IMG/VR virus record: IMGVR_UViG_3300037516_000232
Location: 1 to 29,799 of that record
DNA length: 29,799 nt
Strand: one strand, 5' to 3'
DNA from: a virus
A program made the position numbers and the translations under genes. Positions 731-27,874 of this stretch are shown in pieces; the first letter of the stretch is position 1, and every line of letters begins with the position of its first letter. The notes under the pieces are model-generated. The model saw only the letters and a list, made by a program, of their open reading frames with translations. It was not told the DNA's origin and did no database searches.

Positions 731-960
731 TACACCCAAAACACAAATTTAACAACGGAAACGGCGCTACTCTTTGTAATAATTGTAGTAAGGTAATAAA
801 CAAAGGATTTACCGACGCATTATACTGTAATGAATTATGCGAATCAAAACACAATTTAAAATTAAATTTTACCGACAAAGAATATCGACAACAAATTGAC
901 GAACAATTTAAACAGATAAAAGAGCGAGCAAATAATTACATGAAACTAAAAAAGAAATGA
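727..960 (+). CDS. Putative zinc-knuckle small protein, 77 aa
   Basis: The protein carries two cysteine pairs, C17-x2-C20 and C34-x3-C38, about 13 residues apart. This spacing fits a Cys4 zinc-binding knuckle (MYM/FCS-like treble-clef types have similar patterns). The C-terminal half is a charged helix rich in Lys and Gln. The gene starts in an ATGA overlap with its predecessor and ends in another with the next gene, so translation is probably coupled. Nucleic-acid or protein binding is an inference from the knuckle alone. Confidence 0.6.
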   Translation: MIHPKHKFNNGNGATLCNNCSKVINKGFTDALYCNELCESKHNLKLNFTDKEYRQQIDEQFKQIKERANNYMKLKKK

Positions 961-1055
961 AAAAAGAAGATTTAATAATTAGAATTTGCGAAATTGGAAT
1001 AATAGTAATAACTATTATATTATTAACAATGTCAATTTACGAAGTAATAAAATGA
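957..1055 (+). CDS. Single-pass membrane peptide, 32 aa
   Basis: ATG at 957 (ATGA overlap with the previous stop) opens 32 codons ending in TGA at 1053-1055, which overlaps the next ATG at 1052. After a charged start (MKKED) residues 7-29 are almost all Ile, Leu, Val, Thr or small, a convincing transmembrane helix with a short C-terminal tail. It is the second membrane peptide in this gene run. The role is unknown; membrane micro-proteins in phage accessory regions are sometimes superinfection-exclusion or signalling peptides. Confidence 0.5.
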   Translation: MKKEDLIIRICEIGIIVITIILLTMSIYEVIK

Positions 1056-1192
1056 AACAAAAAATAATAGACAAATTAAACCAAGGTCAAGAAATTGACG
1101 TTTCTTTGTACACGTGGGAAACAATACCGCAAAGCCTGAAACGCTTTTGGCTAAATTATTATAAAAATAAATATTATGAAGACATCAATTGA
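1052..1192 (+). CDS. Hypothetical basic protein, 46 aa
   Basis: The frame is open upstream to a TTG at 986, but the ATG at 1052 overlaps the preceding TGA as ATGA and gives a 46-residue product starting MKQKIIDKLNQGQEID. It is basic and aromatic towards the C terminus (RFWLNYYKNKYYEDIN). It ends 17 nt inside the following gene. No family is recognised. Confidence 0.5.
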   Translation: MKQKIIDKLNQGQEIDVSLYTWETIPQSLKRFWLNYYKNKYYEDIN

Positions 1193-1406
1193 AATGCTAA
1201 TTGACGAATTAGCAAAAAACATTGTCCCAACAGCGGAAGCCGACGAAACCGATTTGGAACGAAACGGGGCGTTTCATATTGCTATAAATTACGCCCGAAC
1301 GTTCCAACAGCGGGAAAAGGATTTAATATTGTCGTCGTTTGATAGTCAGTTTAAAGGAACGGCAAACGAATTTTACGACGCTTGTTTCACAAATAACAAT
1401 TTATAA
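1176..1406 (+). CDS. Hypothetical protein, 76 aa
   Basis: A 76-residue acidic, mostly helical protein overlapping the end of its predecessor by 17 nt and ending 2 nt before the next ATG. It has no cysteine cluster or membrane segment. The pattern of two helices separated by a short linker is typical of small phage accessory proteins, but I cannot name a family. Confidence 0.6.
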   Translation: MKTSIEMLIDELAKNIVPTAEADETDLERNGAFHIAINYARTFQQREKDLILSSFDSQFKGTANEFYDACFTNNNL

Positions 1407-1408
1407 TC

Positions 1409-1594
1409 ATGACACCGAAACAAAAAGCAAATGAATTATACGAAAAAATTTGTTTTACTTTGCCAAATGATTTATACGGCAAACTTTCAGGCATTACAGC
1501 AATGGAATTGGCGCAAATAGTAGTCAACGAATTAATAAAAGAAACGGGGTCAAAGTATTGGTACGAAGTTAAAAAGGAAATAATAAACTTATAA
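1409..1594 (+). CDS. Hypothetical small helical phage protein, 61 aa
   Basis: A 61-residue protein beginning MTPKQKANELYEKI, with a central Ala/Ile-rich helix and a C-terminal YWYEVKKEI segment. Small proteins of this shape (T/S-P-K-x-K-A-x-E-L start, then a second helix ending near W/YY..V) recur in Bacteroidetes phages and prophages as genes of unknown function. The stop overlaps the next ATG by one base (TAATG at 1594). Confidence 0.65.
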   Translation: MTPKQKANELYEKICFTLPNDLYGKLSGITAMELAQIVVNELIKETGSKYWYEVKKEIINL

Positions 1595-1776
1595 TGAAAC
1601 AAAAACAACCCGACCCGATAATCGAAACAATTTTCGAAACCGAAAAACGTTTGAAACGAAAAGCAAACGTAATCTTAAAAGAAGCAAAGGAAACAGAAGC
1701 CGTTAAATTAAAAAACGGTTTCCATTGGGTAATTATCGACAGAAAAACAACAGTATTACGCAAAACAAAAAAATAA
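1594..1776 (+). CDS. Hypothetical basic protein, 60 aa
   Basis: A 60-residue lysine-rich protein that starts on the last base of the previous stop codon (TAATG) and ends in the same way on the next gene (1776). A long basic helix (about residues 12-36) is followed by a short beta-like segment (FHWVIIDRKTTVL). Nucleic-acid binding is possible from charge alone but is not shown. Confidence 0.55.
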   Translation: MKQKQPDPIIETIFETEKRLKRKANVILKEAKETEAVKLKNGFHWVIIDRKTTVLRKTKK

Positions 1777-1913
1777 TGAAATACACAAAAGAACAAGCTA
1801 AAAAACTAAAAACCAAAGGCATGGACGGTTTTACAAAATACAATCGACCATTACCCGACGTTAAAATTGTAGACGGTTTTTATATAATTGAATCGAAAAT
1901 AAATCCTAATTAG
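1776..1913 (+). CDS. Hypothetical basic protein, 45 aa
   Basis: The open frame reaches back to an ATG at 1725, but that start would overlap the previous gene by 52 nt. The ATG at 1776 sits on the preceding TAA as TAATG, like its neighbours, and gives 45 residues starting MKYTKEQAKKLKTKG. It is the last of the micro-gene chain; the next gene has its own promoter. Confidence 0.5.
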   Translation: MKYTKEQAKKLKTKGMDGFTKYNRPLPDVKIVDGFYIIESKINPN

Positions 1914-1922
1914 TTAACTTTG
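1888..1922 (+). promoter_or_regulatory. Bacteroidetes-type promoter, probably leaderless, for the PLD-like gene
   Basis: TAACTTTG at 1915-1922 matches the Bacteroidetes -7 box TAnnTTTG. The nearest upstream TTG is at 1888-1890, a longer gap (24 nt) than the usual 19-21. Only four bases separate the box from the ATG at 1927. Since transcription normally starts about 4-6 nt after this box, the mRNA would begin at or next to the start codon. Confidence 0.5.
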
Positions 1923-1926
1923 TACA

Positions 1927-2658
1927 ATGGAAAATTTTAATTTAGATTTTAATTTTGATTTTGCTTCGTTTTCAAATATTGAAATTGATTTAAACGTAGA
2001 GTTTGAAACAAAATATATTAAACCGCCACAAACTAAAAAATTAACTTATAAAAAACTAAAGTATTCCAAAGCCGAAAAGTTAGCAAAAGACTTAAATTTT
2101 AAGGAATTAGACAGGGCTTTTGTAATTATTAACGGGTCGTTTATTTTTGGCGATTTTATAGAAGCGTTTATCGTAGAAAATCAAATAAATGTATTAGAAA
2201 TGACAATTTCGACGTTGTCGTATTCAAAAGACAATATCGACAGTTTAAAAAACTTATTTGACGCCGACTATATACAAAAATTAAATATTATCGTTTCAGA
2301 TTATTTTTTCAGTCACGAAAAAAATAAATTGATAAAATATACATACGAACAATTTGAAAACAATAATTTCCAATTGGCCACAGCGGGGACGCATTGCAAA
2401 ATTTGTCAATTCAAAACAGAAGGGAACAAATATATAGTAATTCACGGGTCGGTAAATTTAAGGAGTTCGGGAAATATTGAACAATTTGTCATCGAAGACA
2501 ACAAAGAATTATACGAATTTAATCAGGAATACCAAAACAGAATAATAGAAAAGTACAAAACAATAAACAAAACAATTAGAAGCAAAGACTTATGGCATCA
2601 GGTAACAGCGGGGGCGCAAGTTCCACAGGAAAAACAAACGCAAGTAAAAGAACATTAA
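1927..2658 (+). CDS. Phospholipase D-like (HKD-motif) protein
   Basis: A 243-residue protein. Residues 63-185 read as one PLD-type half-domain: a beta strand (FVIING), a region ending LNIIVSDYFF, then H156-C-K158 followed by a strand and H-G-S175-V-N177-L-R-S-S-G-N-I-E-Q. That is close to the H-x-K ... G-S-x-N ... sNprIEQ pattern of PLD-like nucleases found beside terminases in some phages. The usual HKD aspartate is not obvious. PLD enzymes act as dimers of such halves or with two halves in one chain; here only one is present. The C-terminal 40 residues are polar and probably flexible. The gene has its own promoter and precedes the packaging genes, which suggests a DNA-related role at packaging or a nuclease; catalytic activity is inferred. 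Confidence 0.55.
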   Translation: MENFNLDFNFDFASFSNIEIDLNVEFETKYIKPPQTKKLTYKKLKYSKAEKLAKDLNFKELDRAFVIINGSFIFGDFIEAFIVENQINVLEMTISTLSYSKDNIDSLKNLFDADYIQKLNIIVSDYFFSHEKNKLIKYTYEQFENNNFQLATAGTHCKICQFKTEGNKYIVIHGSVNLRSSGNIEQFVIEDNKELYEFNQEYQNRIIEKYKTINKTIRSKDLWHQVTAGAQVPQEKQTQVKEH

Positions 2659-2708
2659 AACAAAGGACTTTATCGGAAAAATACGACGGTAATTCAACAC
2701 CGTTTTAA
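2592..2708 (+). CDS. Candidate nested micro-gene, 38 aa
   Basis: ATG at 2592 lies inside the end of the PLD-like gene in another frame and opens 38 codons to TAA at 2706-2708, 50 nt beyond the end of the host gene. The peptide is Gly/Ser/Thr/Lys-rich at the N terminus (MASGNSGGASSTGKTNASK) and basic afterwards, unlike a random shadow frame, and it fills most of the gap before the small terminase. No domain is recognised. Confidence 0.4.
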   Translation: MASGNSGGASSTGKTNASKRTLKQRTLSEKYDGNSTPF

Positions 2709-2749
2709 AAATATTTAAACAGTAAGAAAAACGGTAAAAAAACGGAATT

Positions 2750-3127
2750 ATGGAAAAAAAAAGTTTCCCAAATAAGTCGACGCAATTTTCAAAAGAAAAC
2801 CAACCTTTAAAAAACGGTCGACCACTTGGAACGTTAAACAGTAAAACAATTTTAAACAGGTTTTTGAATATTACAAAAAAAATGCAAAACCCGTTAAATA
2901 ATATTGACGAAACGTTAACAATTGGCGAATTAATACATTTAAAACAAGTTGCCAACGCGTTAGACGGCGACCTTTCGGCATATAAAGAAATTATCGACCG
3001 TTTAGAAGGTAAAACTATAAACGTTCAGGAAATCAAACAGGAAATCACACAAAAGACGTTGCGCGTTGGTTATGGAGACGCGGACGACGACGAAACGGAC
3101 GACGATAACAGCGAATGGATAAGATAA
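2750..3127 (+). CDS. Terminase small subunit (DUF5681-like)
   Basis: A 125-residue protein directly before, and overlapping by 13 nt, the large terminase. The N terminus has the FSKENQPLKNGRPLGTLNSK segment typical of DUF5681-type phage proteins (F..GN.. ..GRPKG..N). A helical core and then YKEIIDRLEGKT, close to the DR.EGK motif of many small terminases, follow. The C terminus is very acidic (DADDDETDDDNSE), a region that could contact the large subunit. Its role would be to recognise phage DNA and bring it to the motor for packaging. Confidence 0.7.
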   Translation: MEKKSFPNKSTQFSKENQPLKNGRPLGTLNSKTILNRFLNITKKMQNPLNNIDETLTIGELIHLKQVANALDGDLSAYKEIIDRLEGKTINVQEIKQEITQKTLRVGYGDADDDETDDDNSEWIR

Positions 3128-4578
3128 ATTTCAATCCTAAATTATTCAATAACTTATATTGGCATTTATTAAAATATTTTAATGATGCCAATTTCCGTTT
3201 TATATGGGTTTACGGCGGTTCGTCAAGTTCCAAAACTTATTCGGTCGTACAATTACAAATCGTCCTTATGTTATCAGGCGAGGGCGAAAATACTTTAATT
3301 TTAAGGAAATACGCGTCGGATATTCGCGACAGTATATTTGCCGACTTCAAAGGCATAATTTCCGAATGGGGTTTAAATGATTTATTTGTAATACAACAAA
3401 ACTATATTATTTGCGTCCCGACGGGTTCGTTTGTTCGTTTTCGTGGTTTGGACGACAGCGAAAAGGTCAAAGGTATTTCCCAATTTAAGCGGGTCGTAAT
3501 GGAAGAAATTTCACAGTTTGACGAATTGGATTTTAAGCAAATTAAAAAGCGTTTAAGGGGTCGCGTCGGTCAACAAATAATCGGAATATTTAACCCAATT
3601 AGCGAACAACATTGGATTAAAGAAAACATTTTCGACAGGGAAATATTAACGGACATCGAAAGCAATATTTGTCAAACGCAAATAAACGACGCGGGAGACA
3701 CGGTAATTTTGAAAACGAACTATTTAGATAATAAATATATTGTCGGCGAATGGGACGACGAAAACAACCAAATCGGGGGGTTTGTCGATACGCACGTAAT
3801 AAATGATTTTGAAAAGGACAAAATACAAGATTTCAACTATTACCAAATTTATGGTTTGGGTAATTGGGGGAAACTTCGAACAGGGGGCGAGTTTTGGAAG
3901 GACTTTCAAACCGACAAACACGTCACGACAAAAGGTTGGGACGAAAATTTACCAATTCATTTAACATGGGACGAAAACGTTAACCCGCATATAACTTGTT
4001 TAGTTTGGCAAATTAACGGCAAGGTCGCAACGCAAATAGACGAAATTTGTTTGCCCGACCCGCGTAATAGAGTTTTGGACGCCTGTAACGAATTTAAACA
4101 GCGTTACCCCGTCGGAAGGGTTAAAGGTTTGTTTTTATACGGCGACAGAACGAGTATAAAAGAGGACACAAAGTTGGCAAAAGGCGAAAACTTTTACACC
4201 AAAATAAACCAAAATTTAGCGGAATATTTACCGCGTTTACGTATGCAAAGCGTTAACCCAAGCGTCGCACAGTCAGGGGGTTTCATAAACGAAATTTATC
4301 GCAATTGTTTTGAAGAAATAACTATCTTTGTAAATGATAAATGTAAAAAAAGTCTTTTCGATTATCAGTATGCGTTAGAAGACAGCGACGGAACGATTAA
4401 AAAGTCAAAGAAAACGAATCCAATGACAAAGGTAAGTTATGAGGAGTTCGGGCATTGTAGCGATGCAAAACGTTATTTTATAACGGTAGCGTTTGCAACT
4501 GAATATCAAAACTATTTAAGGGGTGGGCGAAAGTCTACAATTTCAATAGGCAGGAATAGGACAAAATCAGGTTATTAA
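3115..4578 (+). CDS. Terminase large subunit
   Basis: A 487-residue DNA-packaging motor of normal length. The ATPase half has the Walker A variant GGSSSSKT (residues 34-41) and a Walker B/catalytic acid segment RVVMEEISQF (about 126-135). The C-terminal RNase H-like nuclease half has plausible metal ligands D286 (LTWDENVNPH), D344 (LYGDRTS) and D450 (FGHCSDAKRY). The Walker A with four serines and the GHCSDA ending place it among terminases (terminase_3 / phage_term_2 type) of Bacteroidetes and Firmicutes phages. It overlaps the small subunit and is followed by connector and portal genes, as expected. It translocates DNA into the prohead and cuts it at the end of packaging. Confidence 0.93.
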   Translation: MDKINFNPKLFNNLYWHLLKYFNDANFRFIWVYGGSSSSKTYSVVQLQIVLMLSGEGENTLILRKYASDIRDSIFADFKGIISEWGLNDLFVIQQNYIICVPTGSFVRFRGLDDSEKVKGISQFKRVVMEEISQFDELDFKQIKKRLRGRVGQQIIGIFNPISEQHWIKENIFDREILTDIESNICQTQINDAGDTVILKTNYLDNKYIVGEWDDENNQIGGFVDTHVINDFEKDKIQDFNYYQIYGLGNWGKLRTGGEFWKDFQTDKHVTTKGWDENLPIHLTWDENVNPHITCLVWQINGKVATQIDEICLPDPRNRVLDACNEFKQRYPVGRVKGLFLYGDRTSIKEDTKLAKGENFYTKINQNLAEYLPRLRMQSVNPSVAQSGGFINEIYRNCFEEITIFVNDKCKKSLFDYQYALEDSDGTIKKSKKTNPMTKVSYEEFGHCSDAKRYFITVAFATEYQNYLRGGRKSTISIGRNRTKSGY

Positions 4579-8861: not shown

Positions 8862-9704
8862 ATGGCAAGGACAATCGAACAAATACAGGCGGGAATTATC
8901 GCCGACATACAGGCAACGCCTGAATTAGCAGAAGCAAACAGCACGAGCAAACGCGCAATTTGGCGTTTATTTGCTTACGTGCAAGCGTCCGCAATTTTGT
9001 TATTAGAGCAAATTATCGACACTTTTACAACGGCTAACGAATTAAAAATAAGTCAGGGAATACCCGCGACGGCGAGTTGGATAAATTCAAAAGTTTTAGA
9101 GTTCCAATATTCAGCGACAAACCCGCAAATTGTGCAATTGGTTAATTTTACACCTGTTTACCCTGTAATCGACAAATCGTTGCGCATAATAACGCGTTGT
9201 TCGGTTGTGACTACGTTGTCAAGTCAGGTAATTGTAAAAGTTGCAAAAAATGACCCGCCCGTGGCGTTAACATCGACGGAATTAAGTTCTTTGCAATCTT
9301 ACATTAATCAAATTGGCGTTATTGGCGTAAATTATAATTGTCAAAGTTTAACATCGGATAAATTATACATAGACGCCGAAGTTTATTTCGACGGTCAATA
9401 TAGTACGGTAATTCAGGCGAGGGTAATAAGCGCAATAAATACGTTTTTATCGACATTGTCTTTTAATGGAATTTTAAAGGTTTCCGATATTGAATTGGCA
9501 GTAAGGGACGTTGTCGGGGTTAACGACATATTATTGAAAAACGTTAAAATGCGAAGCGACGTGACACCGTTTACAGGCGGAACGTTTTTAATTCAAAACA
9601 ATACAGTTATTTCGAGAATATACCCAACTGTTTCGGGTTATATTGTAGGCGAAACAACAACAGGAAACACGTTCGCGGACAAACTAACATTTATAGCAAA
9701 TTAA
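8862..9704 (+). CDS. Baseplate J-like protein (Mu gp47-like)
   Basis: A 280-residue protein with the baseplate_J pattern: RTIEQIQAGIIADIQATPEL, then STSKRAIWRLFAYVQASAILLLEQ near residue 26-50. A beta-rich middle and a C-terminal half with DAEVYFDGQYSTVIQARVISAINTFLSTLSFNGILKVSDIELAVRDVVGV-type content (helix, then the conserved v..si.vsd) follow. It is a wedge component that forms the iris around the central hub of contractile baseplates. It is oddly placed between neck and capsid genes, about 11 kb from the other baseplate genes. Confidence 0.82.
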   Translation: MARTIEQIQAGIIADIQATPELAEANSTSKRAIWRLFAYVQASAILLLEQIIDTFTTANELKISQGIPATASWINSKVLEFQYSATNPQIVQLVNFTPVYPVIDKSLRIITRCSVVTTLSSQVIVKVAKNDPPVALTSTELSSLQSYINQIGVIGVNYNCQSLTSDKLYIDAEVYFDGQYSTVIQARVISAINTFLSTLSFNGILKVSDIELAVRDVVGVNDILLKNVKMRSDVTPFTGGTFLIQNNTVISRIYPTVSGYIVGETTTGNTFADKLTFIAN

Positions 9705-10373
9705 ATGTACGACGTCAATTATAATACTACAATCGAAAGCCTTTTAGTTCCCGACAAAAGAACTAAAAAAACGGTTGCGTTTAATAGCGCATTAGTTGCA
9801 GAAACGGCAAACAATCACGACATATTATTCACAATTTACAAAGACTATTCCGTTTCGCCAAATTGGACGGCGGGAACTTACGCAAGGAATCAATTAGTAA
9901 AATACAATAAAAGTATTTTCCAAAGCGTTGAAAACGGTAATACAACAGAACCGACACAATCGGACAAATGGCGTTTAGTTTCTGAAAACTTTTTGGGTTC
10001 GGATTTTCGTTTAAGTATTACAGGGTCAAAATTAAATTTAGAATATGCCTTAAATACATGGTTTGGAAGTACGTTTAGACAACCGAGCGTCGGAAATAGC
10101 GACATTTATTTAACAACAAATAACATTTCTTTAGTTCCAATTTTTAGAGTTGGATTGACTGAAATTGAAAGTACGTCAGTCGGAACGCTTACAAGTTCCC
10201 AATTAGTAGTCGACTCTTATAGTTTCGCAACGCAATACAATATAACAATAAACATTCCGACGGCTTTATATACATCGCTTGGAACAACAAACGACATTCG
10301 TAATTCAGTTGTGCGAAGTTTTGCAGACAAATACATAAACGCAGGGTTAACCTATACGTTAACTATTTATTAA
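9705..10373 (+). CDS. Baseplate/tail protein with carbohydrate-binding-like motif (gp48 position)
   Basis: A 222-residue protein starting at the base after the J-like stop, where Mu-like phages encode gp48. Residues about 54-92 (W-T-A-G-T-Y-A-R-N-Q-L-V-K-Y ... S-I-F-Q-S ... T-E-P ... D-K-W) match the W..G.Y..gd.V.y.g..y.s...gn..ePt.....W pattern of chitin-binding/CBM5-12-type modules common in phage tail proteins. The remainder is beta-rich with a C-terminal helix (NSVVRSFADKYINAG). It may join the wedge to a fibre or touch surface glycans. Role by position; the module is seen in sequence. Confidence 0.6.
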   Translation: MYDVNYNTTIESLLVPDKRTKKTVAFNSALVAETANNHDILFTIYKDYSVSPNWTAGTYARNQLVKYNKSIFQSVENGNTTEPTQSDKWRLVSENFLGSDFRLSITGSKLNLEYALNTWFGSTFRQPSVGNSDIYLTTNNISLVPIFRVGLTEIESTSVGTLTSSQLVVDSYSFATQYNITINIPTALYTSLGTTNDIRNSVVRSFADKYINAGLTYTLTIY

Positions 10374-10384
10374 AATATTTTTTG

Positions 10385-10392
10385 TATTTTTG
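10385..10392 (+). promoter_or_regulatory. Candidate -7 box upstream of the HNH gene
   Basis: TATTTTTG fits TAnnTTTG and lies 11 nt before the ATG at 10404 in a very AT-rich gap between two genes. No clear -33 TTG is visible at the usual distance. It could let the homing endonuclease be expressed on its own, but AT-rich DNA produces such boxes by chance. Confidence 0.35.
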
Positions 10393-10403
10393 TAAAAAAA
10401 AAT

Positions 10404-10931
10404 ATGGAATTAATAGAAATTTGGAAAAGTGTTTTAAATTATGAGGGTATTTATGAAGTTTCTAATTTAGGTAATATAAAATCATTAGACAGAAAAATAC
10501 CCGACGGTAGAAAAGAAAATTCTTTTAGAATAAAAAAAGGAAATACAATAAAAGCAAGTAAATTAAAATATAGTCAAGTAATTTTATGCAAAAATAAAAT
10601 AAGAAAAGCGCATTTATTACATAGAATTGTAGCGACTGCATTTTTAGAAAATAAACAAAATAAGCCTTGCGTAAATCATAAAGATTTAAACAAACAAAAC
10701 AATAAAATTGACAATTTAGAATGGTGTACTTATTCAGAAAATAATATACACGCAATAAAAAACGGAGCAAAAAAACCTTATTGGATTGATAAAAAAAGAA
10801 GTCAAGAAACAAAAGACAAGATTTCATTATCAAAAAAAGGTAAATTAAGCAATAGAAAAAATTATATAGTAAGTCAAGAAACAAAAGACAAGATTTCTAA
10901 TACATTAAAAAACAAACATATTAAAAAATGA
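10404..10931 (+). CDS. Free-standing HNH homing endonuclease (NUMOD4-HNH-NUMOD3)
   Basis: A 175-residue nuclease with three parts. NUMOD4 is at residues 5-55 (IWKSVLNYEGIYEVSNLGNIKS). The HNH core is LLHRIVATAFLEN, then V-N-H92-K-D ... N-N-K-I-D-N-L-E-W-C-T ... E-N-N-I-H-A. The NUMOD3-like C terminus has SQETKDKIS twice (133-141 and 157-165), each a DNA-contacting helix unit. Such enzymes cut intron- or gene-less alleles and spread by repair. The gene is much more A-rich and poorer in CG than its neighbours and is inserted between tail genes, overlapping the next ATG by 4 nt, so it is probably a recent mobile insertion. Confidence 0.93.
   Translation: MELIEIWKSVLNYEGIYEVSNLGNIKSLDRKIPDGRKENSFRIKKGNTIKASKLKYSQVILCKNKIRKAHLLHRIVATAFLENKQNKPCVNHKDLNKQNNKIDNLEWCTYSENNIHAIKNGAKKPYWIDKKRSQETKDKISLSKKGKLSNRKNYIVSQETKDKISNTLKNKHIKK
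10800..10897 (+). repeat. 26-bp direct repeats inside the HNH gene
   Basis: The same 26 bases (beginning AGTCAAGAAACAAAAG) occur at 10800-10825 and 10872-10897, 72 nt apart and in the same reading frame. They encode the two SQETKDKIS units. Exact identity at DNA level points to a recent duplication of a DNA-binding module or recombination between repeats. Confidence 0.9.
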
Positions 10932-11773
10932 AAATACTTAATATTTCAGACATTAGCAGTTCAAACGCCATGCCTATAAAATCAGGGACATTGCAATTTT
11001 TACAGGACGCACACAAAGAAACAATCGCGGGGTTAGTTACAAACATTTTGCCAAACCCAATAACGGGGACTATTTACATTTTATCGGGTTGCGTAAATTC
11101 AGGAACGGGAAGCGTTTATAATATTTCGGCGGGGGTTATTTACTACAATGGCGAAATTTTTAATTTTGACGGAATAAGTTTCACATTAACGGGTTTGGAG
11201 AAAGCATACGCGAGAATAGAAACGACGCAATACATAACCAACGCCGACCCCGTACAATTTACGGACGGGGTTAATAGAAACGTTCACAATATTAGAAAAT
11301 TTGTCGTTGAAAACACAATCACATCGTCGGGGTTACCTGAATTTAAGGACTTTGTAACCGTTCCGAGTAGTTCGTTAAGGGGCGATTTAAAAGAAATCGT
11401 TTGCGACGACGTTTATTTAAACAAATATTTTGACGCGACAGGACTTGGACGTTTAGAACGCACAGGTTGGGCGATAACTAACGGACAAAATGGAACGCCA
11501 AGCGACGCGGGTAAAGTTATAATATCTTACGGCGGGGGTTATACACTCGGACAAACGGGCGGGGCGGAAACGGTAACGTTAACTGAAAACCAAATGCCAA
11601 TACATAGCCACGGCGGAGTACCTCAAGTTGTAACGGACACGGATAGGGGGATTGGTAATCTCTCTCTTTTTAGCCTCGACAATACGCCGTCGTCAACAAG
11701 TTCCGCAGGGGGCGGACAAGCGCACAACAATATGCAACCATTTGTCGTTCGTTTACGAATAATGAAATTGTAA
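10928..11773 (+). CDS. Tail fibre with phage collar / microcystin-dependent-type C-terminal domain
   Basis: A 281-residue tail protein. The N-terminal 170 residues are beta-rich and probably anchor and extend the fibre. The C-terminal part has the collar-type pattern: G-W-A-I-T-N-G-Q-N-G-T-P (about 180-191), a G-rich LGQTGGAETVTL segment, ENQMPIHSH (220-228), and the final HNNMQPFVVRLRIMKL, typical of the NMQPy....yIIk ending. The usual PDLRGRF is changed to PSDAGKV. Collar proteins contact the host or other fibres. Its ATG overlaps the HNH stop (ATGA), so the nuclease gene may have displaced the original upstream junction. Confidence 0.8.
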   Translation: MKILNISDISSSNAMPIKSGTLQFLQDAHKETIAGLVTNILPNPITGTIYILSGCVNSGTGSVYNISAGVIYYNGEIFNFDGISFTLTGLEKAYARIETTQYITNADPVQFTDGVNRNVHNIRKFVVENTITSSGLPEFKDFVTVPSSSLRGDLKEIVCDDVYLNKYFDATGLGRLERTGWAITNGQNGTPSDAGKVIISYGGGYTLGQTGGAETVTLTENQMPIHSHGGVPQVVTDTDRGIGNLSLFSLDNTPSSTSSAGGGQAHNNMQPFVVRLRIMKL

Positions 11774-18235: not shown

Positions 18236-18910
18236 ATGGAAAATTTTAGAGTACCTAGCAAATTAGAAAACCCTTTAATATTAAACGACGTCGCGAGCGA
18301 TATTATTTACGGACTTGCAAACTATGCAGGGCTAAAAAGCATTAAAATAATGGACGCGCAAAATTCGCCTTATGTAAAAGACAAAGTGCAAAAAGGGTTT
18401 ATTGAAGGCGACGCCCCGCCGTTGTCAAAAGGAGAAAAAAAAGAAAAATTTATTTCAAAACTTAATACGATAGTATATTCAAACGTAATTTTTGACAAAG
18501 GCGTAATTTTAAACGAAGAAGGGGAACAAGTTGACAAATGGGACGATTTCCGAATAGACGACGTATTGTTAAACGTTTCACAAAGCAAAAAAATAATAAC
18601 AACCGAAATTCAAGGACGTGACGGAACGGTTAAGGAATACATCGGGTTGGACGATTTTCAAGTGCAAATAACGGGGCGTTTAAACGGGACTTATAATGTA
18701 AACCCAAAAGAATTAACGCGACAATTAAAAATTATTTTGTCCGCAGGGCAACCGTTAGAAATAACGTCTTGGTATTTGCAAAATTTAGGCATTGACGACA
18801 TCGTTGTCAAAGATTTTAATTTCGGTCAAACAGAGGGCGAGTATTCAACGCAATATTTCACAATTAACGCAATGTCGGACAAACGTTTCGAAGCCAAAAT
18901 AATATCGTAA
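18236..18910 (+). CDS. Tail/baseplate protein, DUF6046-like
   Basis: A 224-residue protein between tape measure and hub. Its C-terminal half has the DUF6046 pattern: QGRDGTVKEYIGLDDFQVQI, then T-G-R-L-N-G, Y-x-V, a helix of L..L..I......L.I.S..L...GI, and a last strand ending F-T-I-N-A-M-S-D. In this position Mu-like phages have the DNA circularisation/N-type protein and P2 has gpU, so a role in joining the tape measure end to the hub is likely. It overlaps the next ATG by one base. Confidence 0.65.
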   Translation: MENFRVPSKLENPLILNDVASDIIYGLANYAGLKSIKIMDAQNSPYVKDKVQKGFIEGDAPPLSKGEKKEKFISKLNTIVYSNVIFDKGVILNEEGEQVDKWDDFRIDDVLLNVSQSKKIITTEIQGRDGTVKEYIGLDDFQVQITGRLNGTYNVNPKELTRQLKIILSAGQPLEITSWYLQNLGIDDIVVKDFNFGQTEGEYSTQYFTINAMSDKRFEAKIIS

Positions 18911-20115
18911 TGCTTAAACCTGTAACCTACATAACAATAACGCAAAAAACGGATTTTACAAATTCCGACAGCGTAATAACAAAAAGGTCAAAAGTATTTT
19001 TCTTTGATTTTTGCAATAGTTTTGAAATAAACGACGGTTGGGAAAACATGACGACAGGCGGGAAAATTGTTTTTCCAAAAAATATGGACGTTATCGACAC
19101 AAATACAAAAACGACATTTTCTTTTTTTGGTAAAAACAAAAATATTGCAGGGTTTAACGGTGCGCCTTTATTAATGCGGGGCGACAAAGTAAAAATCGAA
19201 TCTTTTTATATCTATTGGGACGATAATTTAACCGAAAAACAAACCGAAAAACGAACGATTTTCGAGGGTTATATTACGAAAATAAACGCTAAAATACCCG
19301 TTGAAATTGAAGTAGAAGACAACATGTTTTTATTGAAACAATTGCCAATGACAAACGGGGCTTATGGGGCGGGCGTTAGTTTGGAAACAATATTGACGGA
19401 CGCATTAAGCGGGACGGGGTTAACTGTTAATCAATTAACATCGACAAAATTAACGTGGGACAATTCGTTGTTAATTATTGAAAACGTCACAGTTGCGCAA
19501 TTTTTGGAAAAGTTAAGAAAAGACGCGTTTTTGCATTGTTATTTCAAAGGGACTGAATTACGCGTCGGGTCAATTGTTTATATCGAATCTGAAGCCAAAA
19601 CAAAAACTTTTCAATTTCAGGAAAATATTATTTCGTCCGATTTAACTTTCGTAAGAAAAGACGATATTATTTTGTCGGCGGTTGCATCAAACCACATCGA
19701 AGAACTAACGGGAAAAACAACAAAAGACGGTCACGCAAAAACTAAAAATTCACGCATCGAGGTTTTAGTTTGGTTTGACAGGTCGGGAAAATTTCAAAGC
19801 AAAGAAATAAAAAAAGGCGAAAAAGCCGACGCAAACGTCGACGGCGAAAGGAAAACGTTTCACTTTTTAGAAGCAAAAACGACGGACGATTTAATAAAAT
19901 TGGCAAAAGACAGTTTGCAAAAATATTATTATACAGGATTTAAAGGGAGTTTTTTAACGTTTGGAACGCCAAGCGTAGATTTTGGCGACAATGCCGAAAT
20001 AATAAACAACCTTTTACCCGAACAAAACGGAACTTATAAAATCAAAGCCGTTAACATTATGGGCGGGGTTAGTGGATTTCGTCAAAAAATAGAATTAGAC
20101 TTTAAAATTAAATAA
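18910..20115 (+). CDS. Baseplate hub protein (gpD / gp27-like)
   Basis: A 401-residue protein of normal hub length, starting on the stop codon of its neighbour (TAATG). It has alternating beta strands and the hub-type pattern: an early F-E-I-N-D-G-W-E strand region, R-T-I-F-E-G-Y-I-T-K-I (the g.v...), VSLETILTDALSGTGLTV followed by FLEKLRKDAFLHCYFKG (the ..il......l......fL..l....g...). It ends NGTYKIKAVNIMGGVSGFRQKIEL. The trimeric hub closes the tail tube above the spike, which is the next gene. Confidence 0.8.
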   Translation: MLKPVTYITITQKTDFTNSDSVITKRSKVFFFDFCNSFEINDGWENMTTGGKIVFPKNMDVIDTNTKTTFSFFGKNKNIAGFNGAPLLMRGDKVKIESFYIYWDDNLTEKQTEKRTIFEGYITKINAKIPVEIEVEDNMFLLKQLPMTNGAYGAGVSLETILTDALSGTGLTVNQLTSTKLTWDNSLLIIENVTVAQFLEKLRKDAFLHCYFKGTELRVGSIVYIESEAKTKTFQFQENIISSDLTFVRKDDIILSAVASNHIEELTGKTTKDGHAKTKNSRIEVLVWFDRSGKFQSKEIKKGEKADANVDGERKTFHFLEAKTTDDLIKLAKDSLQKYYYTGFKGSFLTFGTPSVDFGDNAEIINNLLPEQNGTYKIKAVNIMGGVSGFRQKIELDFKIK

Positions 20116-20116
20116 A

Positions 20117-20635
20117 ATGGCGGATTTAACGAGAACAATTCAGGAATTAGCAGGAACGCGAAATCAGGACGAAGTTAAATTGTACCAATGCAATGTTAAT
20201 TCGGTCGATTTAAGCAAAAGAACGGCAAACGTTACAACGATAACAGGGACGGCAAATATAACGTTTGACGCATTGTTAACGGCGGGAATTTCGGACGGGT
20301 TTGTAATTACGCCCGAAATTGATAGTATGGTTTATGTTATCATGTCAAAATATACATTGCCTTTTATTGTTACATTTTCGGACATTACGCAATTTGACAT
20401 CATGGGCGGGGAGTTTGGCGGATTGGTTAAGGTTGTGGAACTTACGCAAAAATTAAACAGTTTGGAAAATAAAGTCAACGAAATTATTAGTACCTTTGGA
20501 ACACACACGCACACCGTTACAGCGGTAGGCGCGCCAACTTCGCCAACATCGACCCCAATTGTGGGAAATTTGACGATTTCACAGCGCGCCGACATTGAAA
20601 ACATCAATATTAAACACGGAAAAAATGGCGATTAG
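20117..20635 (+). CDS. Baseplate spike protein (gpV / gp45-like)
   Basis: A 172-residue protein with an OB-fold-like N-terminal half (YQCNVNSVDLSKRTANVTTI) and a middle strand GFVITPEIDSMVYVIMSK (the P.vGs.v.v). A short coiled region follows, and a C-terminal THTHTV motif precedes a predicted beta-helix-like tail. Gp45/gpV-type spikes often use His pairs to bind iron at the tip. It forms the membrane-piercing tip under the hub. It overlaps the next gene by 11 nt. Confidence 0.78.
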   Translation: MADLTRTIQELAGTRNQDEVKLYQCNVNSVDLSKRTANVTTITGTANITFDALLTAGISDGFVITPEIDSMVYVIMSKYTLPFIVTFSDITQFDIMGGEFGGLVKVVELTQKLNSLENKVNEIISTFGTHTHTVTAVGAPTSPTSTPIVGNLTISQRADIENINIKHGKNGD

Positions 20636-20933
20636 ACACGACTTTGGATTAGATAACGACGGCGATTTATTATTTGCGAACGGCGATATTTCAATCGTTG
20701 AAAGCGACAAACAGCATATTATAGACACATGCAACGCTTTTGTTGGTTGGTGGAAGGAATTCCCTTTGGACGGCGTCGGAATTGGTAATTTTTCCAAATC
20801 GGTAGGCGGTGCGCAACAGTTAGCGCGAAAAGTTAAAATCGAATTAGAAAAGGACGGGTATAAAGTTGACAACCCCGTCGTGGAATTTGACGAAGAAGGT
20901 AAATTAAATTTATACCCAAATGCAAGTATTTAA
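20625..20933 (+). CDS. Baseplate wedge protein (gp25 / gpW-like)
   Basis: The frame is open from a TTG at 20595, but the ATG at 20625 gives a compact 102-residue protein with the gp25-like pattern. It reads DFGLDNDGDLLFANGDISIVESDKQHI (D....dGD......G.i.....ve.i.q.i...l....GEW...p..G), then WWKEFPLDGVGIGNF, and a final acidic strand. gp25-like proteins bind the sheath and start its assembly on the baseplate. Start and stop both overlap neighbours, suggesting coupled translation. Confidence 0.75.
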   Translation: MAIRHDFGLDNDGDLLFANGDISIVESDKQHIIDTCNAFVGWWKEFPLDGVGIGNFSKSVGGAQQLARKVKIELEKDGYKVDNPVVEFDEEGKLNLYPNASI

Positions 20934-22221
20934 AGAATTCCAACAGGGTTGCACAATTTTTGACGTCGTTTTGGAATTGTATTTGTCATTAAATTTATTG
21001 CCAAAATTAATTTATGACAATGGAATAACAGACATAAACGCAATAACAACAACAGGGCAAAAATTTTTGTACGATACCGAATTCATTTACAACGAAAAAA
21101 TGTCGGACGAAATAACAAAAAAAAATTATAAGTTTCGAACGGGCGATTTTAGCGTACCGCAATATAAATTTTTACCTAACGACGCCTATGTAATTAGTCA
21201 AATTGACAATGGTAATTCCGCGTATTTATTTGGAAGTTTTACAGGATATAGTCTAAACAATACACCTTCGAGACATATTATAAAATTAAACCAAGATTTA
21301 ACAATTGACACTTCATTTAATGTAGGGACAGGGTTTAATTTGACAACTTATTTAGGCGAGGGAATAATACAACAACCCGACGGCAAAATAATAGCTTTCG
21401 GCACGTTTACGTCATATAACGGAACGTCAAGCGTTAGAATAATTAGATTAAATACTGACGGCAGTATTGACAATAGTTTTGTCACAGGTAGTGGGTTTTA
21501 CGGGAATTCAATTAATTATACATGTGGGGCGTCAATAGACTCATTAGGGAATATTATTGTTTGTGGAAGATATAACCAATATAATGGCGTTAATCCACCT
21601 ATGAGATTACTAACAAAATTGAATAGTAATGGCGTTATGGACATGACATTTTCAGCGTCAACGAGTTTTAATGATGTAACTATTTGCTCTTTAATTAATT
21701 CAAACGACTCCATGTTTATTGGTGGGTATTTCAGCGCTTTTAGTGGAGCGTCAGCTAACCGTATTATTAAATTAAACTCTAACGGAACAAGGGACAATAG
21801 TTTTGCAGTTGGCACAGGATTTAATGGTAACGTTACAGGATTTTTAAGAATATCAGGAGAGACCTCGTTTTACGTTTTTGGAAGTTTTACAACTTATAAA
21901 GGTATTTCCGCTAATAGAATTATTAAATTAAATTTGGACGGAACAATTGACAATAATTTTGTAAGTGGTTCAGGATTTGGTAATATTTCTTTTTATACTT
22001 TATCTGTTATTTGGACAAATAAATTATTAATTTATGGTAATTTTACCTCTTATAACGGTATACCGTCATTAAATAATATAATATTAAATTCCGACGGGAC
22101 AATATTTCAATCATTTACGACTAAATATGAAATAATGTTTGCAATTGGCAATAAATTATACGGTTCAAAACCTAACGATTATTTGAAACTAATAAAGACT
22201 AATTCGACACCAATATTTTAA
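20920..22221 (+). CDS. LysM/gpX-like baseplate anchor fused to delta-60 (DUF5122) beta-propeller
   Basis: A 433-residue fusion. Residues 1-75 look like a tail protein X/LysM-like domain: FQQGCTIFDVVLELYLSLN, then LIYDNGITDINAIT-T-T-G-Q-K-F. This matches the q.tlfDiai..yGs...l..LidDN.i..i...l..Gq.l pattern. From about residue 90 there are six delta-60 repeats of about 45 residues, each with (F/C)G.F..Y.G....ri.kLN.dG..D.sF..G.GF. A shorter seventh unit may close a propeller. The gene overlaps the wedge gene by 14 nt. A receptor-binding role is inferred from the fold and the place among host-recognition genes. Confidence 0.72.
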   Translation: MQVFKEFQQGCTIFDVVLELYLSLNLLPKLIYDNGITDINAITTTGQKFLYDTEFIYNEKMSDEITKKNYKFRTGDFSVPQYKFLPNDAYVISQIDNGNSAYLFGSFTGYSLNNTPSRHIIKLNQDLTIDTSFNVGTGFNLTTYLGEGIIQQPDGKIIAFGTFTSYNGTSSVRIIRLNTDGSIDNSFVTGSGFYGNSINYTCGASIDSLGNIIVCGRYNQYNGVNPPMRLLTKLNSNGVMDMTFSASTSFNDVTICSLINSNDSMFIGGYFSAFSGASANRIIKLNSNGTRDNSFAVGTGFNGNVTGFLRISGETSFYVFGSFTTYKGISANRIIKLNLDGTIDNNFVSGSGFGNISFYTLSVIWTNKLLIYGNFTSYNGIPSLNNIILNSDGTIFQSFTTKYEIMFAIGNKLYGSKPNDYLKLIKTNSTPIF

Positions 22222-22247
22222 TATAAAAAAAATAAATAAATACGACA

Positions 22248-22583
22248 ATGGCTTTAGATTTTACACACTTAAAGGGCGATACATTCGAAGCGGTTAACCT
22301 TCAAATGATTGTTAATAACGTAGCTTTAGACTTAACAGGTTGCACGTTGAGAATGCAGTTAAAAAAAGAATACGGGGGGGTTGCGTTTTTGTCTTTGACC
22401 TCGGTTGCAAGTGCGGGAATAACTATCACAAACCCCGCAAGTGGTTTGTTTAAAATTAACAGGCAAATAATTAACATCGACGCTTTTAACTATATTTACG
22501 ACATTGAATTGATAAAAGCGGACGGAACGGTTAAAACATACATAAAAGGCAATTTTTCGATAACTAACGACGTGACAAGATAA
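22248..22583 (+). CDS. Ig-like baseplate protein (BppU N-terminal type)
   Basis: A 111-residue all-beta protein with the pattern of BppU-type/phage Ig domains: HLKGDTFEAVNLQMIVNNVALDLTG (the kGdt.......nG.p.dLtG), then LRMQLKKEYGG, ITITNPASGLFKI and YIYDIELIKADGTVKTYIKGNF (the Y.yDIe......g...t...G.f.i). In siphophage and myophage tails it attaches receptor-binding fibres to the baseplate. Its stop overlaps the next ATG by one base. Confidence 0.65.
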   Translation: MALDFTHLKGDTFEAVNLQMIVNNVALDLTGCTLRMQLKKEYGGVAFLSLTSVASAGITITNPASGLFKINRQIINIDAFNYIYDIELIKADGTVKTYIKGNFSITNDVTR

Positions 22584-24220
22584 TGGCAAACGATATAATA
22601 GACATAAATGTAATCCAAACAGTTGAGACGGTCGAAATTACGGTGACCCCAAATTTAACAACTGTTAATATTAATCAAATTACAGGCGGTGGCGGTGGCG
22701 GTGGCGGTGGCGTTACAAATTTAAGCACAACGCAAACCGCAACTAATTTCTCTATTAATAGCGATACAGGAGACGACGCAATCGTACCGTTAGGAAATGG
22801 AACGGAAGCGGGGGCAACTATAAACGATTACACAACAACTGAAAAAACAAAATTAGCAGGAATCGCAACGGGCGCAGAGGTTAACGTTAACGCCGATTGG
22901 GACGCAACAACAGGAGACGCCCAAATATTAAACAAACCTATTATTCCGTCAATAAGTGGATTAGCTACCGTTATTTATGTAGATAGTCAGGACGCTTTAA
23001 AAGTAGATAAAATAACAGGCAAAGGATTAAGCACGGAAGATTATACCACAATTGAAAAAACAAAATTATCAGGAATAGCGACAGGAGCGGAAGTAAATGT
23101 AAACGCCGATTGGGACGCAACAACGGGAGACGCTCAAATATTAAATAAACCTATTATTCCGTCAACAACAAATTTAGTGCCTTACACGGGCGCAATAAGC
23201 GACGTAAATTTAGGCGAATACGGCATACAATTGGGAAATTTGGAGTTTGACAATACGCCAACAAACATTCCAACTTCTGTTGGCTCAATGTATTACAACG
23301 ACACCGACGGAACGTTAGATTTAATATTAAAAGGTGGCAACGTTAAGCTACAAATAGGGCAGGAGTCAGTAGTCCGAGTAGTAAATAAAACCGCCACAAA
23401 TATAACATTATTAGAATCCAATTACCAAGCGGTAAGGGTTACGGGTGCGCAGGGGCAAAGAATGAAAGTTGATTTAGCTCAAGCGACGACCGACGGATTA
23501 AGCGCCGAAACAATCGGTTTAGTAACTGAAACAATCGCAAACAATCAGGAAGGATTTGTCACAACAAGCGGTTTAGTTCGAAATATTAACACGACGGGGA
23601 GTTTACAGTCGGAAACATGGGCAGACGGCGACGTTTTATATTTATCGCCAACAGTTGCGGGAAGTATAACAAAAGTAAAACCAATCGCCCCAAATCATTT
23701 AATTGTTATCGGGTACGTTATTTCGGCACACGCAACGCAAGGAACTATTTTTGTCAAAGTCGATAACGGTTACGAATTGGACGAATTGCACAACGTAAAT
23801 ATAACAAGCGAAGCAAACGAAGACTTTTTGCAATACGAAAGCGCGACGCAACTTTGGAAAAACAAGGCGTTAACAGGAACTTTAATAAAATCAAAGTTAG
23901 GTATTACAACCTTAAGCGGGGACAACACAGGCGACCAAAATTTAAGCGGTTACGCGCTTTTGGCGAGTCCGACATTTTCAGGGACGCCGTCATTACCTAC
24001 GGGAACTATTGCAGTAACACAAACAAGCGGGGACAATACGACTAAAATAGCGACAACGGCTTTTGTTGCGAGCGCATTAAGTGCAGGGTTAGGGGTAACA
24101 GTAAGCCCGCAAGATACGTTTTCAACTGCAAATATTGCAACCGTTACGGCTTCCCAATATAATGCTTTTGTAATAGCGGGGACGGTTAGCGCGACGACTT
24201 TATACTTTATAACTGCATAA
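22583..24220 (+). CDS. Long tail fibre protein
   Basis: A 545-residue fibre. Residues 1-34 are an anchor domain, then nine glycines form a hinge. Two nearly identical 42-residue units (about residues 82-123 and 153-194) carry T-E-K-T-K-L-x-G-I-A-T-G-A-E-V-N-V-N-A and N-K-P-I-I-P, a unit common in trimeric Bacteroidetes phage fibres. A middle domain (about 225-420) has V-N-K-T-A and G-x-V-x-x-x-A features of fibre shafts. The C-terminal part has two GDNT-type motifs with T-T-K-I-A-T-T-A-F-V, typical of fibre trimerisation regions. The repetitive build and position indicate the main host-binding fibre. Confidence 0.83.
   Translation: MANDIIDINVIQTVETVEITVTPNLTTVNINQITGGGGGGGGGVTNLSTTQTATNFSINSDTGDDAIVPLGNGTEAGATINDYTTTEKTKLAGIATGAEVNVNADWDATTGDAQILNKPIIPSISGLATVIYVDSQDALKVDKITGKGLSTEDYTTIEKTKLSGIATGAEVNVNADWDATTGDAQILNKPIIPSTTNLVPYTGAISDVNLGEYGIQLGNLEFDNTPTNIPTSVGSMYYNDTDGTLDLILKGGNVKLQIGQESVVRVVNKTATNITLLESNYQAVRVTGAQGQRMKVDLAQATTDGLSAETIGLVTETIANNQEGFVTTSGLVRNINTTGSLQSETWADGDVLYLSPTVAGSITKVKPIAPNHLIVIGYVISAHATQGTIFVKVDNGYELDELHNVNITSEANEDFLQYESATQLWKNKALTGTLIKSKLGITTLSGDNTGDQNLSGYALLASPTFSGTPSLPTGTIAVTQTSGDNTTKIATTAFVASALSAGLGVTVSPQDTFSTANIATVTASQYNAFVIAGTVSATTLYFITA
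22826..23164 (+). repeat. Duplicated 126-bp unit in the tail fibre gene
   Basis: 22826-22951 and 23039-23164 are in-frame copies of 126 bp that differ at many third positions but encode proteins with only two changes in 42 residues (T/I and A/S). A spacer of 87 nt lies between them. The silent divergence shows that protein sequence is conserved by selection after an old duplication. Confidence 0.9.
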
Positions 24221-26411: not shown

Positions 26412-27416
26412 ATGTATAATAAAACATATAAGTCCGACATAGTAAAAGAATATATTTTAAAATTTCCCGAAGCAACTACAATGGCGATTTCGCGAATAAT
26501 TTTAAAAGAAAACCCTTTGGATTTCGACTCTTTTGAACAAGCAAGGGGAATGGTTCGCTATTATAGGGACGAAATTAGCCACACAAAAAAATATAACGGA
26601 ACAATTGTGCAAAAAAGAACGGCGGAACAAAAAAAACAAGCAATGGTAGGAAAACTTCCCGAAAGCGATTATTTACAAAACGAGCCTTTTATTATTCCAA
26701 AAGGTCAAAACAATATTTTAATTTTATCGGATATACATTTCCCATATCAGGACAACAAAGCGTTAGAATTGGCTATCAATTACGGAATTGAACATAAAGT
26801 CAACGCGATTTATTTAAACGGCGATACTTTAGACTTTTACCAATGTAGCAGGTTCACAAAAGACCGTCGTTTACGTGACATGGCAGGCGAATTGGAAATG
26901 GGACGCGAATTTTTAAAAATGTTACAAGATACGTTTAATTGTCCGATTTATTTTAAAATAGGTAATCACGAGAAAAGATTTGAAGACTATTTAATGATAA
27001 AAGCGCCCGAATTGTTAGGAATTGACGATTTTAAGTTGGAACAACTTTTGCGTATGCGGGAATTTGGCGTTACTTTAGTAAAGGATAAACAAATGGCAAT
27101 GGCGGGAAAATTACCGATTTTGCACGGGCATGAATGGTTCGGGGGGTTTGCCCCGCCTGTTAACCCCGCACGTGGTTTGTTTTTAAAAGCGAAAGAAAGT
27201 TGCATCGTTGGACACCACCACAGGACAAGCGAACACACGGAAAAAACTTTGGGCGGGGAAGTTACGACAACATGGTCAACGGGTTGTTTATGCGGTTTAG
27301 AGCCTGAATATGCGCCCTACAATAATTACAATCATGGTTTCGCGCATGTTAAGGTTTTAAATAGCGGTCATTATGAATTGAAAAATATGCGAATTATTAA
27401 TTATAAAATCGTTTAA
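26412..27416 (+). CDS. Metallophosphoesterase (calcineurin-like)
   Basis: A 334-residue enzyme with all motifs of the family in order: D107-I-H109 (LSDIHFPYQD), G-D138 (YLNGDTLDF), G-N185-H186-E (IGNHEKR), H238-G-H240 (LHGHEWF) and G-H268-H-H270. The N-terminal 60 residues look like a helical, HTH-like region. Substrates of phage members include RNA 5'/3' ends, nucleotides and DNA; none can be picked here. It lies between endolysin and spanin candidates and overlaps the latter by one base, an uncommon place for such an enzyme. Confidence 0.9.
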   Translation: MYNKTYKSDIVKEYILKFPEATTMAISRIILKENPLDFDSFEQARGMVRYYRDEISHTKKYNGTIVQKRTAEQKKQAMVGKLPESDYLQNEPFIIPKGQNNILILSDIHFPYQDNKALELAINYGIEHKVNAIYLNGDTLDFYQCSRFTKDRRLRDMAGELEMGREFLKMLQDTFNCPIYFKIGNHEKRFEDYLMIKAPELLGIDDFKLEQLLRMREFGVTLVKDKQMAMAGKLPILHGHEWFGGFAPPVNPARGLFLKAKESCIVGHHHRTSEHTEKTLGGEVTTTWSTGCLCGLEPEYAPYNNYNHGFAHVKVLNSGHYELKNMRIINYKIV

Positions 27417-27874
27417 TGAAATCACTTTCAAAAATAATTTTTTTGTTTTCTTTAGTCTTGTTTGTTGGTTGTAGTACCCGAAAGGTTCAAAAATCGACCG
27501 AAGCGGTAAAAGAAACAACAACCGAAGCGACAAAAATCGACGAAGTAAAAACCGATAACACAAAAATAAATATTGTCGAAAATTGCGACGAAACAATTAT
27601 CGAGCCAATAGACACAATCGCGCCCATGATTGTTAACGGCAAGGTTTACAAAAACGCCCGTTTAAGACGCACAAATAAAAAAGTCGAAACAAATATCGCA
27701 AAAGATACAAAAGAAGTTAAAACAACGGTAAAACAAGCCAAAAAAAAGACGTCGCACGAAGTAATTAAAAAAGATATTAAAAAGAAATCAATTTCATTGT
27801 GGTTTTGGTTGCTTTTAATAATTCCGATTTATTATTTGTTCAGGAAATACAAAGAATTGATTTGGTTTATTTAA
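27416..27874 (+). CDS. Lipoprotein with C-terminal membrane anchor, putative unimolecular spanin
   Basis: A 152-residue protein. The N terminus is a lipoprotein signal (MKSLSKIIFLFSLVLF) with lipobox F-V-G-C19. Residues 20-125 are a charged, Lys/Thr/Glu-rich, partly coiled periplasmic region. Residues about 127-142 (SLWFWLLLIIPIYYLF) form a C-terminal transmembrane helix followed by a positive tail. One protein tied to the outer membrane by lipid and to the inner membrane by its C terminus is the design of unimolecular spanins such as phage T1 gp11. It closes the lysis operon after holin and endolysin and is followed by a terminator. Confidence 0.65.
   Translation: MKSLSKIIFLFSLVLFVGCSTRKVQKSTEAVKETTTEATKIDEVKTDNTKINIVENCDETIIEPIDTIAPMIVNGKVYKNARLRRTNKKVETNIAKDTKEVKTTVKQAKKKTSHEVIKKDIKKKSISLWFWLLLIIPIYYLFRKYKELIWFI

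Follow-up and report, generated by a model that had tools for sequence, protein, structure and literature searches.

A Putative Baseplate Wedge Protein Fused to a Predicted DUF5122/Delta-60 β-Propeller in a Contractile-Tailed Phage

The window analyzed here, the whole of a 29,799-base virus record, has the gene set of a phage with a contractile tail (terminase, portal, protease, sheath, tape measure, and hub) and, on its plus strand, a 433-residue open reading frame (20920–22221) in which the N-terminal part of a baseplate gene is joined to a DUF5122/delta-60 propeller. The N-terminal part (residues 1–78; 20920–21153) is a small baseplate protein, LysM/gpX-like by indirect comparison, which we read as a probable wedge protein 4 (BW4; gp53/gpX type); DNA alignments place a recombination junction at 21150–21157, and residues 80–433 (21157–22218) correspond to a predicted seven-bladed β-propeller (PF17164, AlphaFold2 model, Foldseek, and VIA-align). 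The fusion gene overlaps by 14 bases a gene for a gp25-like baseplate wedge 1 (20622–20933; phrog_120 baseplate wedge subunit, E 0.0015; Peternella_1 counterpart, E 5e-7). Upstream lie the genes for a protein at the spike position (gpV place; 20117–20635), so placed by the gene order seen in Winoviridae and matching only phrog_27270, of unknown function, for the baseplate hub (18910–20115; phrog_4930, E 1.4e-38; 22–30% identical to the hubs of Bacteroidota phages, Winoviridae among them), and for a DUF6046/phrog_5233 baseplate hub protein (18236–18910). Downstream, a BppU_N-like small protein (22248–22583; PF10651, E 3.4e-5, 24 bits for a cut-off of 23.1; phrog_1084, E 2.8e-20) marks the start of a variable adhesin locus and is followed by a tail-fiber-like protein (22583–24220; phrog_4209 tail fiber, E 7.6e-6). 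A gpJ-like baseplate wedge 2 (8862–9704; Flavobacterium-prophage J-like HMM, E 5.7e-34; phrog_6, E 1.3e-4) and a conventional tail fiber (10928–11773; phrog_8469 tail fiber, E 2e-20; prophage fiber HMM, E 4.1e-8) are encoded among the head genes; all of these genes are on the plus strand. Apart from those of the propeller itself, 20500–22600 has a single repeat, a short two-copy match. An Rfam scan of the window returned no match, and promoter- and terminator-like sites near the fusion gene gave no useful signal.

Searches with the window hub find Winoviridae (19 records), including the Flavobacterium phages FPSV, lotta8-1, and pippi8-1 and the Winogradskyella phage Peternella_1 (E 1e-25 to its hub). 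The order hub–spike–gp25–small LysM-like gene is common to the window, the Winoviridae, and Flavobacterium prophages; by these two features, a homologous hub and a shared structural gene order, the window is linked to the Winoviridae. In lotta8-1, FPSV-S1, and Peternella_1 the tail genes have the same order, the hub is 29–30% identical by tblastn, and the small gene behind the gp25-like gene stands alone (90–96 residues), whereas the window carries a fusion at this place and has its J-like gene elsewhere, among the head genes. A hub profile located the tail block in 50 of 299 genomes in one draw from the genus Flavobacterium, many weaker matches being split, and 18 of the 20 prophage regions fetched hold a counterpart by a small-gene HMM (E < 1e-3). 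The prophage regions listed have J-like, I-like, and fiber genes after the small gene; some prophages have other small genes between the gp25-like and the small LysM-like gene. About 23 of the 30 rows in an alignment of prophage counterparts keep a GIGxMI-type end, six are without it, and one is cut by the end of its locus. The head-gene block of the window also holds what is probably an I-like gene (9705–10373, E 0.98) and an HNH endonuclease gene (10404–10931); the J-like, probable I-like, and fiber genes (8862–11773) stand between head genes here and behind the small LysM-like gene in Winoviridae-type prophages.

The fusion protein is a member of Pfam PF17164 (DUF5122; E 4e-41, 139.4 bits for a cut-off of 27, in four stretches). 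A six-frame scan located five DUF5122 places, three of them above the cut-off (21373–21480, 60.1 bits; 21703–21804, 36.8 bits; 21874–21960, 33.4 bits) and two below it (21232–21318, 22.4 bits; 21547–21651, 16.9 bits). With TIGR02608 (delta_60_rpt) the protein scores 62.5 bits, below that model's own cut-off of 76.5 and hence outside the NCBIfam family as delimited, and its closest relative (locus L019) scores 75.2 bits. An AlphaFold2 model of the fusion protein from an 18-sequence alignment (pLDDT 79.1, pTM 0.73) has a pLDDT of about 71–95 across most of residues 91–430, with one ten-residue block at 65, and low confidence for residues 1–90. In Foldseek the model is matched best by the symmetric, 7-bladed propeller 7bie (E 5.6e-9, TMt 0.72), and VIA-align gives Z of about 20 to WD40-type propellers; the latter matches bear on the fold only and are uninformative on function. 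Phage propellers were absent from the VIA-align matches listed, which does not exclude that they exist. The six to seven DUF5122 repeats proposed from the sequence alone are thus recovered, as six repeats and a closing half blade by sequence and as a best match to 7-bladed propellers by model. A seven-bladed fold of residues 80–433 is predicted with good confidence and, in our reading of the alignment and model, the C-terminal and N-terminal strands of the propeller would together close the seventh blade.

With residues 1–78 as query, the gene was found in 11 other virus contigs, whose counterparts are 71–99% identical to the window. In nine of these it is a stand-alone gene (107 residues from the shared start), and in two (L007 and L008) it forms the same fusion as in the window, so that the 12 contigs divide into 9/12 stand-alone and 3/12 fused. 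The stand-alone gene directly follows the gp25-like gene and usually precedes fiber-like or variable genes. A hub search yielded 10 contigs, all but one already among the relatives; the sequence examined of the new one (L236) ends before the small-gene position. The last ∼30 residues are conserved among the stand-alone proteins and missing in the fusion; a second copy of the lost segment was not found in the window, which is a fragment. The same join, with the frame kept open at a dS of about 0.1–0.17, is present in three independent contigs, which excludes an assembly artefact; the fusion is real and retained in all three. The sequence-only reading had proposed a baseplate anchor fused to a delta-60 propeller, the anchor being a conserved component onto which the propeller had been placed, and had suggested a search for the anchor as a separate gene in related phages; it is borne out on the fusion and the placement, and the separate gene exists.

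The N-terminal part occupies the place of wedge protein 4: in the window, its relatives, and the cultured Winoviridae it comes immediately after the gp25-like wedge gene. In this it resembles the BW4 proteins T4 gp53, pyocin PA0627, and P2 gpX (LysM fold; gpX we take to be a BW4), which are likewise small and encoded right after a gp25-like wedge gene, and with which it would share a LysM/gpX-like core according to an indirect profile comparison. The proposed likeness to gpX/LysM-type tail proteins would hold indirectly, through that comparison, and not at the level of family membership. Neither Pfam Phage_tail_X (none at E ≤ 0.1) nor LysM matched the fusion protein, and Phage_tail_X (PF05489) matched neither three Winoviridae counterparts (none at E ≤ 1; control P2 gpX, 4.4e-32) nor the prophage counterparts tested; the N-terminal part is accordingly not filed as a member. 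By sequence it found nothing usable in Pfam, PHROGs, or the PDB, the best PDB row (3zfj, E 0.12) being judged spurious. Pfam LysM gave E 0.0013–0.0023 in three of 10 prophage counterparts and 0.1 in a fourth, all below its cut-off. When a 30-sequence alignment of the prophage counterparts (genes for ∼97 residues in the same, Winoviridae-type, place) was compared with P2 gpX, hhalign scored 26.9 with a probability of 66% (best of 100 shuffled gpX sequences, 15.9), and the window family aligned in register with these counterparts at 21.3 with a probability of 13% (best of 100 column shuffles, 18.3). The shallow window family showed no hhalign link to P2 gpX alone or to the three Winoviridae proteins alone, iterated HMMER with the prophage-counterpart family never brought the window family below E 0.4, and an initial search of cultured phages for this gene returned two chance-level rows only. 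Structure prediction, which the sequence-only reading had put forward for both parts, produced a propeller fold for one and, for the other, a model with a pLDDT of 57 and no PDB match, whose helices (13–23 and 27–34) and strand (49–52) fit a β-α-α-β order minus the first strand; a fold search with the stand-alone protein gave six rows, none below E 5. From gene position and the indirect profile link we infer that the N-terminal part is a LysM-type BW4 (T4 gp53/P2 gpX type).

The window DNA tracks the stand-alone gene of its relatives to about 21150 and the propeller gene of L019 from about 21156, the source switching within about ten bases. Downstream of the junction the identity to L019 is 82% over 1,023 bases of DNA and 78% in protein, and blastn found no shared sequence between the flanks of the two loci; in L019 the propeller stands behind a Thr/Pro-rich stalk and an unrelated N-terminal region. 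Nearly all conserved segments of the propeller family, starting from the first, lie within the captured piece, so that a complete domain moved. IMG/VR lists L019 as viral, and glycosyltransferase and helicase families of phage type occur in this record; neither terminase nor portal was found in it.

A wider search collected 61 viral propeller loci, of which the closest to the window are 78–46% identical (78, then 58, 56, 52, and 47%), in comparison with 42% for the best bacterial relative (among 79 distinct loci drawn from the best 80 of 176 matches, the latter from 430 pattern stretches). An HMM built from 11 viral window-type propellers gave 410–574 bits for window-type proteins, 256 and 251 for two further viral types, and 200 for the best bacterial protein, a partly circular comparison in which only L043 (410), L061 (256), and L051/L053 (251) are independent of the model. 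The sequence-only reading had regarded such propellers as typical of secreted Bacteroidetes proteins and this one as a captured host-type module. The first point agrees with the data, as 76 of the 79 best bacterial loci are from Bacteroidota (by record titles) and, among nine bacterial DUF5122 proteins examined (6–13 TIGR02608 stretches each), eight have a T9SS sorting domain above the cut-off and the ninth has one below it. The second, if taken as direct capture from a host, probably fails: since the nearest relatives are viral, the best bacterial match is at 42%, and the HMM scores are higher for viral proteins, the propeller seems to have come most immediately from a pool of modules carried by phages, with an older bacterial origin possible. 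In anatomy the sequence-only reading is largely right, and in function it is likely right.

Window-type propellers occur on four N-terminal groups (the window group; L019; L038/L039/L040; and L041–L044), between which BLASTP found no similarity at E ≤ 0.01; L045, left out of this test, resembles L044 by eye. Terminase (phrog_2) was detected in three of 11 propeller-carrying records, and portal phrog_213 in none of eight, a result made uninformative by controls that were silent too. The propeller genes of L038 (2325–3779) and L060 (4650–6311) have a Thr/Pro stalk, and part of the N-terminal region is common to L038, L039, and L040. The sequence-only reading had counted occurrence of the repeats in another class of protein against a module placed on a baseplate component; such occurrence is found, on other phage anchors and in T9SS proteins, and is what a mobile module predicts as well.

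Both parts of the fusion are under purifying selection: among the three fusion contigs dN/dS is 0.05–0.16 for the N-terminal part and 0.16–0.32 for the propeller, compared with 0.03 for the hub (window and L008 only) and 0.06–0.12 for the spike-position gene. The propeller has the highest dN of the genes compared. We assigned as D-A loops the 12 residues after each G-x-G-F (or STSF) motif, giving five regions with 60 of the 354 codons. These regions hold 13 of 30 replaced propeller codons and six of 43 synonymous-only codons (Fisher p 0.0003 against other codons and 0.006 against synonymous-only codons). As the regions were defined after the alignment was seen, and as such loops vary in propellers generally, the clustering of replacements on one set of loops is only a hint.

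On balance we favor, as rather probable, a hybrid baseplate protein whose phage-derived propeller is displayed outward and binds the surface of a flavobacterial host. A BW4-type core of ∼78 residues, linking neighboring wedges, would seat the hybrid in the wedge ring, presumably in six copies. One illegitimate recombination would have swapped the last ∼30 residues for a complete seven-bladed DUF5122 propeller, the donor being drawn from a module pool common to phages. The propeller would then be exposed on the baseplate exterior with the variable loops of one face outward, and this face may bind a glycan or surface protein of the flavobacterial host, the propeller serving as a receptor-binding or auxiliary adhesion module next to the ordinary fibers. 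The BW4 identity, baseplate seat, copy number, outward display, host group, and receptor binding are all presumed here. Receptor binding is the likeliest function, and an exchangeable device for gripping bacteria the most likely role. The propeller may be an auxiliary and not the main receptor-binding protein, because the same phage has an ordinary fiber and a second fiber-like gene, and the hybrid may seat abnormally in the baseplate, because the stand-alone proteins, and most prophage counterparts too, conserve the C-terminal segment that it lacks.

A bolder version, which we offer tentatively, is that the wedge "glue" protein now acts as a receptor-binding protein in its own right, its C terminus being a docking point at which adhesins can be exchanged; the delta-60 propeller would then be a cassette passed between unrelated phages and attached to any available virion protein. 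A further hint of the C terminus as a recurrent docking point comes from a 151-residue LysM-like version (L205, 3177–3632; L240, 3359–3814) on a contig of 4,850 bases from a genome of the genus Flavobacterium, in which a glycine-rich C-terminal tail, which we take to be fiber-like, replaces the conserved end and fiber-like genes come next; a phage search with this tail returned no match.

The propeller could instead be a general stickiness or decoration module of the virion surface (for particles, mucus, or extracellular polysaccharide), with the baseplate as one of several sites. The widely differing N-terminal anchors and the position of the L038 and L060 propeller genes among head genes, between terminase and portal genes, would suit such a module, but the carrier gene of the window lies inside the baseplate block and that of L041 two places downstream of a tail-fiber-like gene. 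Replacements also cluster on one loop set, as for a specific site, though such loops vary generally, and we regard general decoration as unlikely. An enzyme that cuts host polysaccharide at the baseplate (a depolymerase or lyase) seems quite improbable. In its favor, propellers also occur as catalytic folds, the best fold matches include the propeller-bearing alkylating enzyme CylK, and phage propeller endosialidases are on record (PMC4901313). Against it, Pfam, PHROGs, and NCBIfam yielded no convincing catalytic family, one acetyltransferase model reached E 0.051 with 13 bits for a cut-off of 550, and the propellers matched by fold are of every kind, most of them not enzymes. That the propeller merely substitutes structurally for the lost segment, as an inward-facing spacer or clamp, would account for the replacement of a conserved terminus, but it is very doubtful for a domain of ∼350 residues in place of a ∼30-residue tail that other phages keep, and one that evolves faster than its neighbors. 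An assembly chimera or recent dead fusion, which a breakpoint within a gene might suggest, is extremely improbable given three contigs with the frame kept open at a dS of about 0.1–0.17 and a dN/dS well below 1 in both parts.

The hybrid baseplate protein that we favor would extend known arrangements: propeller adhesins on baseplates, BW4 fusions, and phage delta-60 proteins have all been described. BW4 is small, of LysM fold, and universally conserved, and acts as the "glue" of pyocin wedges; it is fused to the centrepiece BCP in Milano, PVC, and AFP and to BW1 in SPO1-like phages, and in previously studied baseplates receptor-binding proteins bind BW3 (all from PMC10811340). Those fusions join core baseplate proteins, whereas in the window an adhesin-like propeller takes the place of the protein's C-terminal segment. 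PhiKZ gp131C, a seven-bladed propeller at the baseplate periphery, and the phi11 receptor-binding protein gp45, with a five-bladed propeller, are similarly baseplate propellers, for which binding to the host surface has been proposed or modelled (PMC4901313). They have other anchors and are likened to the window protein by fold and place, not by DUF5122 sequence; the phi11 propeller is on a trimeric stem attached to the baseplate, in contrast to the putative wedge core protein in the window. Bacteroidota DUF5122/delta-60 proteins belong to the same repeat family (PF17164, TIGR02608) but are mainly secreted proteins, whereas the window has one seven-bladed module, carried by a phage baseplate protein. 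Phage delta-60 proteins (BFVD A0A6J5M436 "Delta-60 repeat" and A0A6J5NBZ2; phrog_5490; Stenotrophomonas phages RAS14 and CM1) have the same kind of propeller, with at most 28% identity to the window protein among the matches listed, and none is known to be joined to a baseplate core protein. No published report of such a fusion was found in the accessible, largely non-subscription literature, and we saw no precedent for BW4-borne adhesin display in the literature consulted.

If the favored reading is correct, a wedge core protein, instead of BW3 or fibers, would be added as an attachment point for host-recognition domains, and DUF5122, a Pfam family of unknown function, would gain a plausible and assayable function. 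The apparent movement of a whole propeller domain between phages, with a readable breakpoint, makes adhesin acquisition by phages directly testable.

Several minor observations concern the surrounding genes. In L187 and L217 the LysM-like gene is in one frame behind a coiled-coil-like gene (open frame of 228 residues), and the J-like gene that follows looks fragmented. In L228 and L229 (about 933–3266) several small genes, including one peptidase-like and one lipoprotein-like by eye, lie between the gp25-like and LysM-like genes of these prophages, and lysis genes may therefore be inserted in this baseplate block. The stretch 464–1926 of the window has open reading frames all shorter than 80 residues on either strand, without an Rfam match, and is probably a run of small genes. 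The close relative L007 lacks, at the corresponding position, the metallophosphoesterase gene (phrog_221) that the window has at 26412–27416; its endolysin gene is directly followed by the counterpart of 27416–27874.
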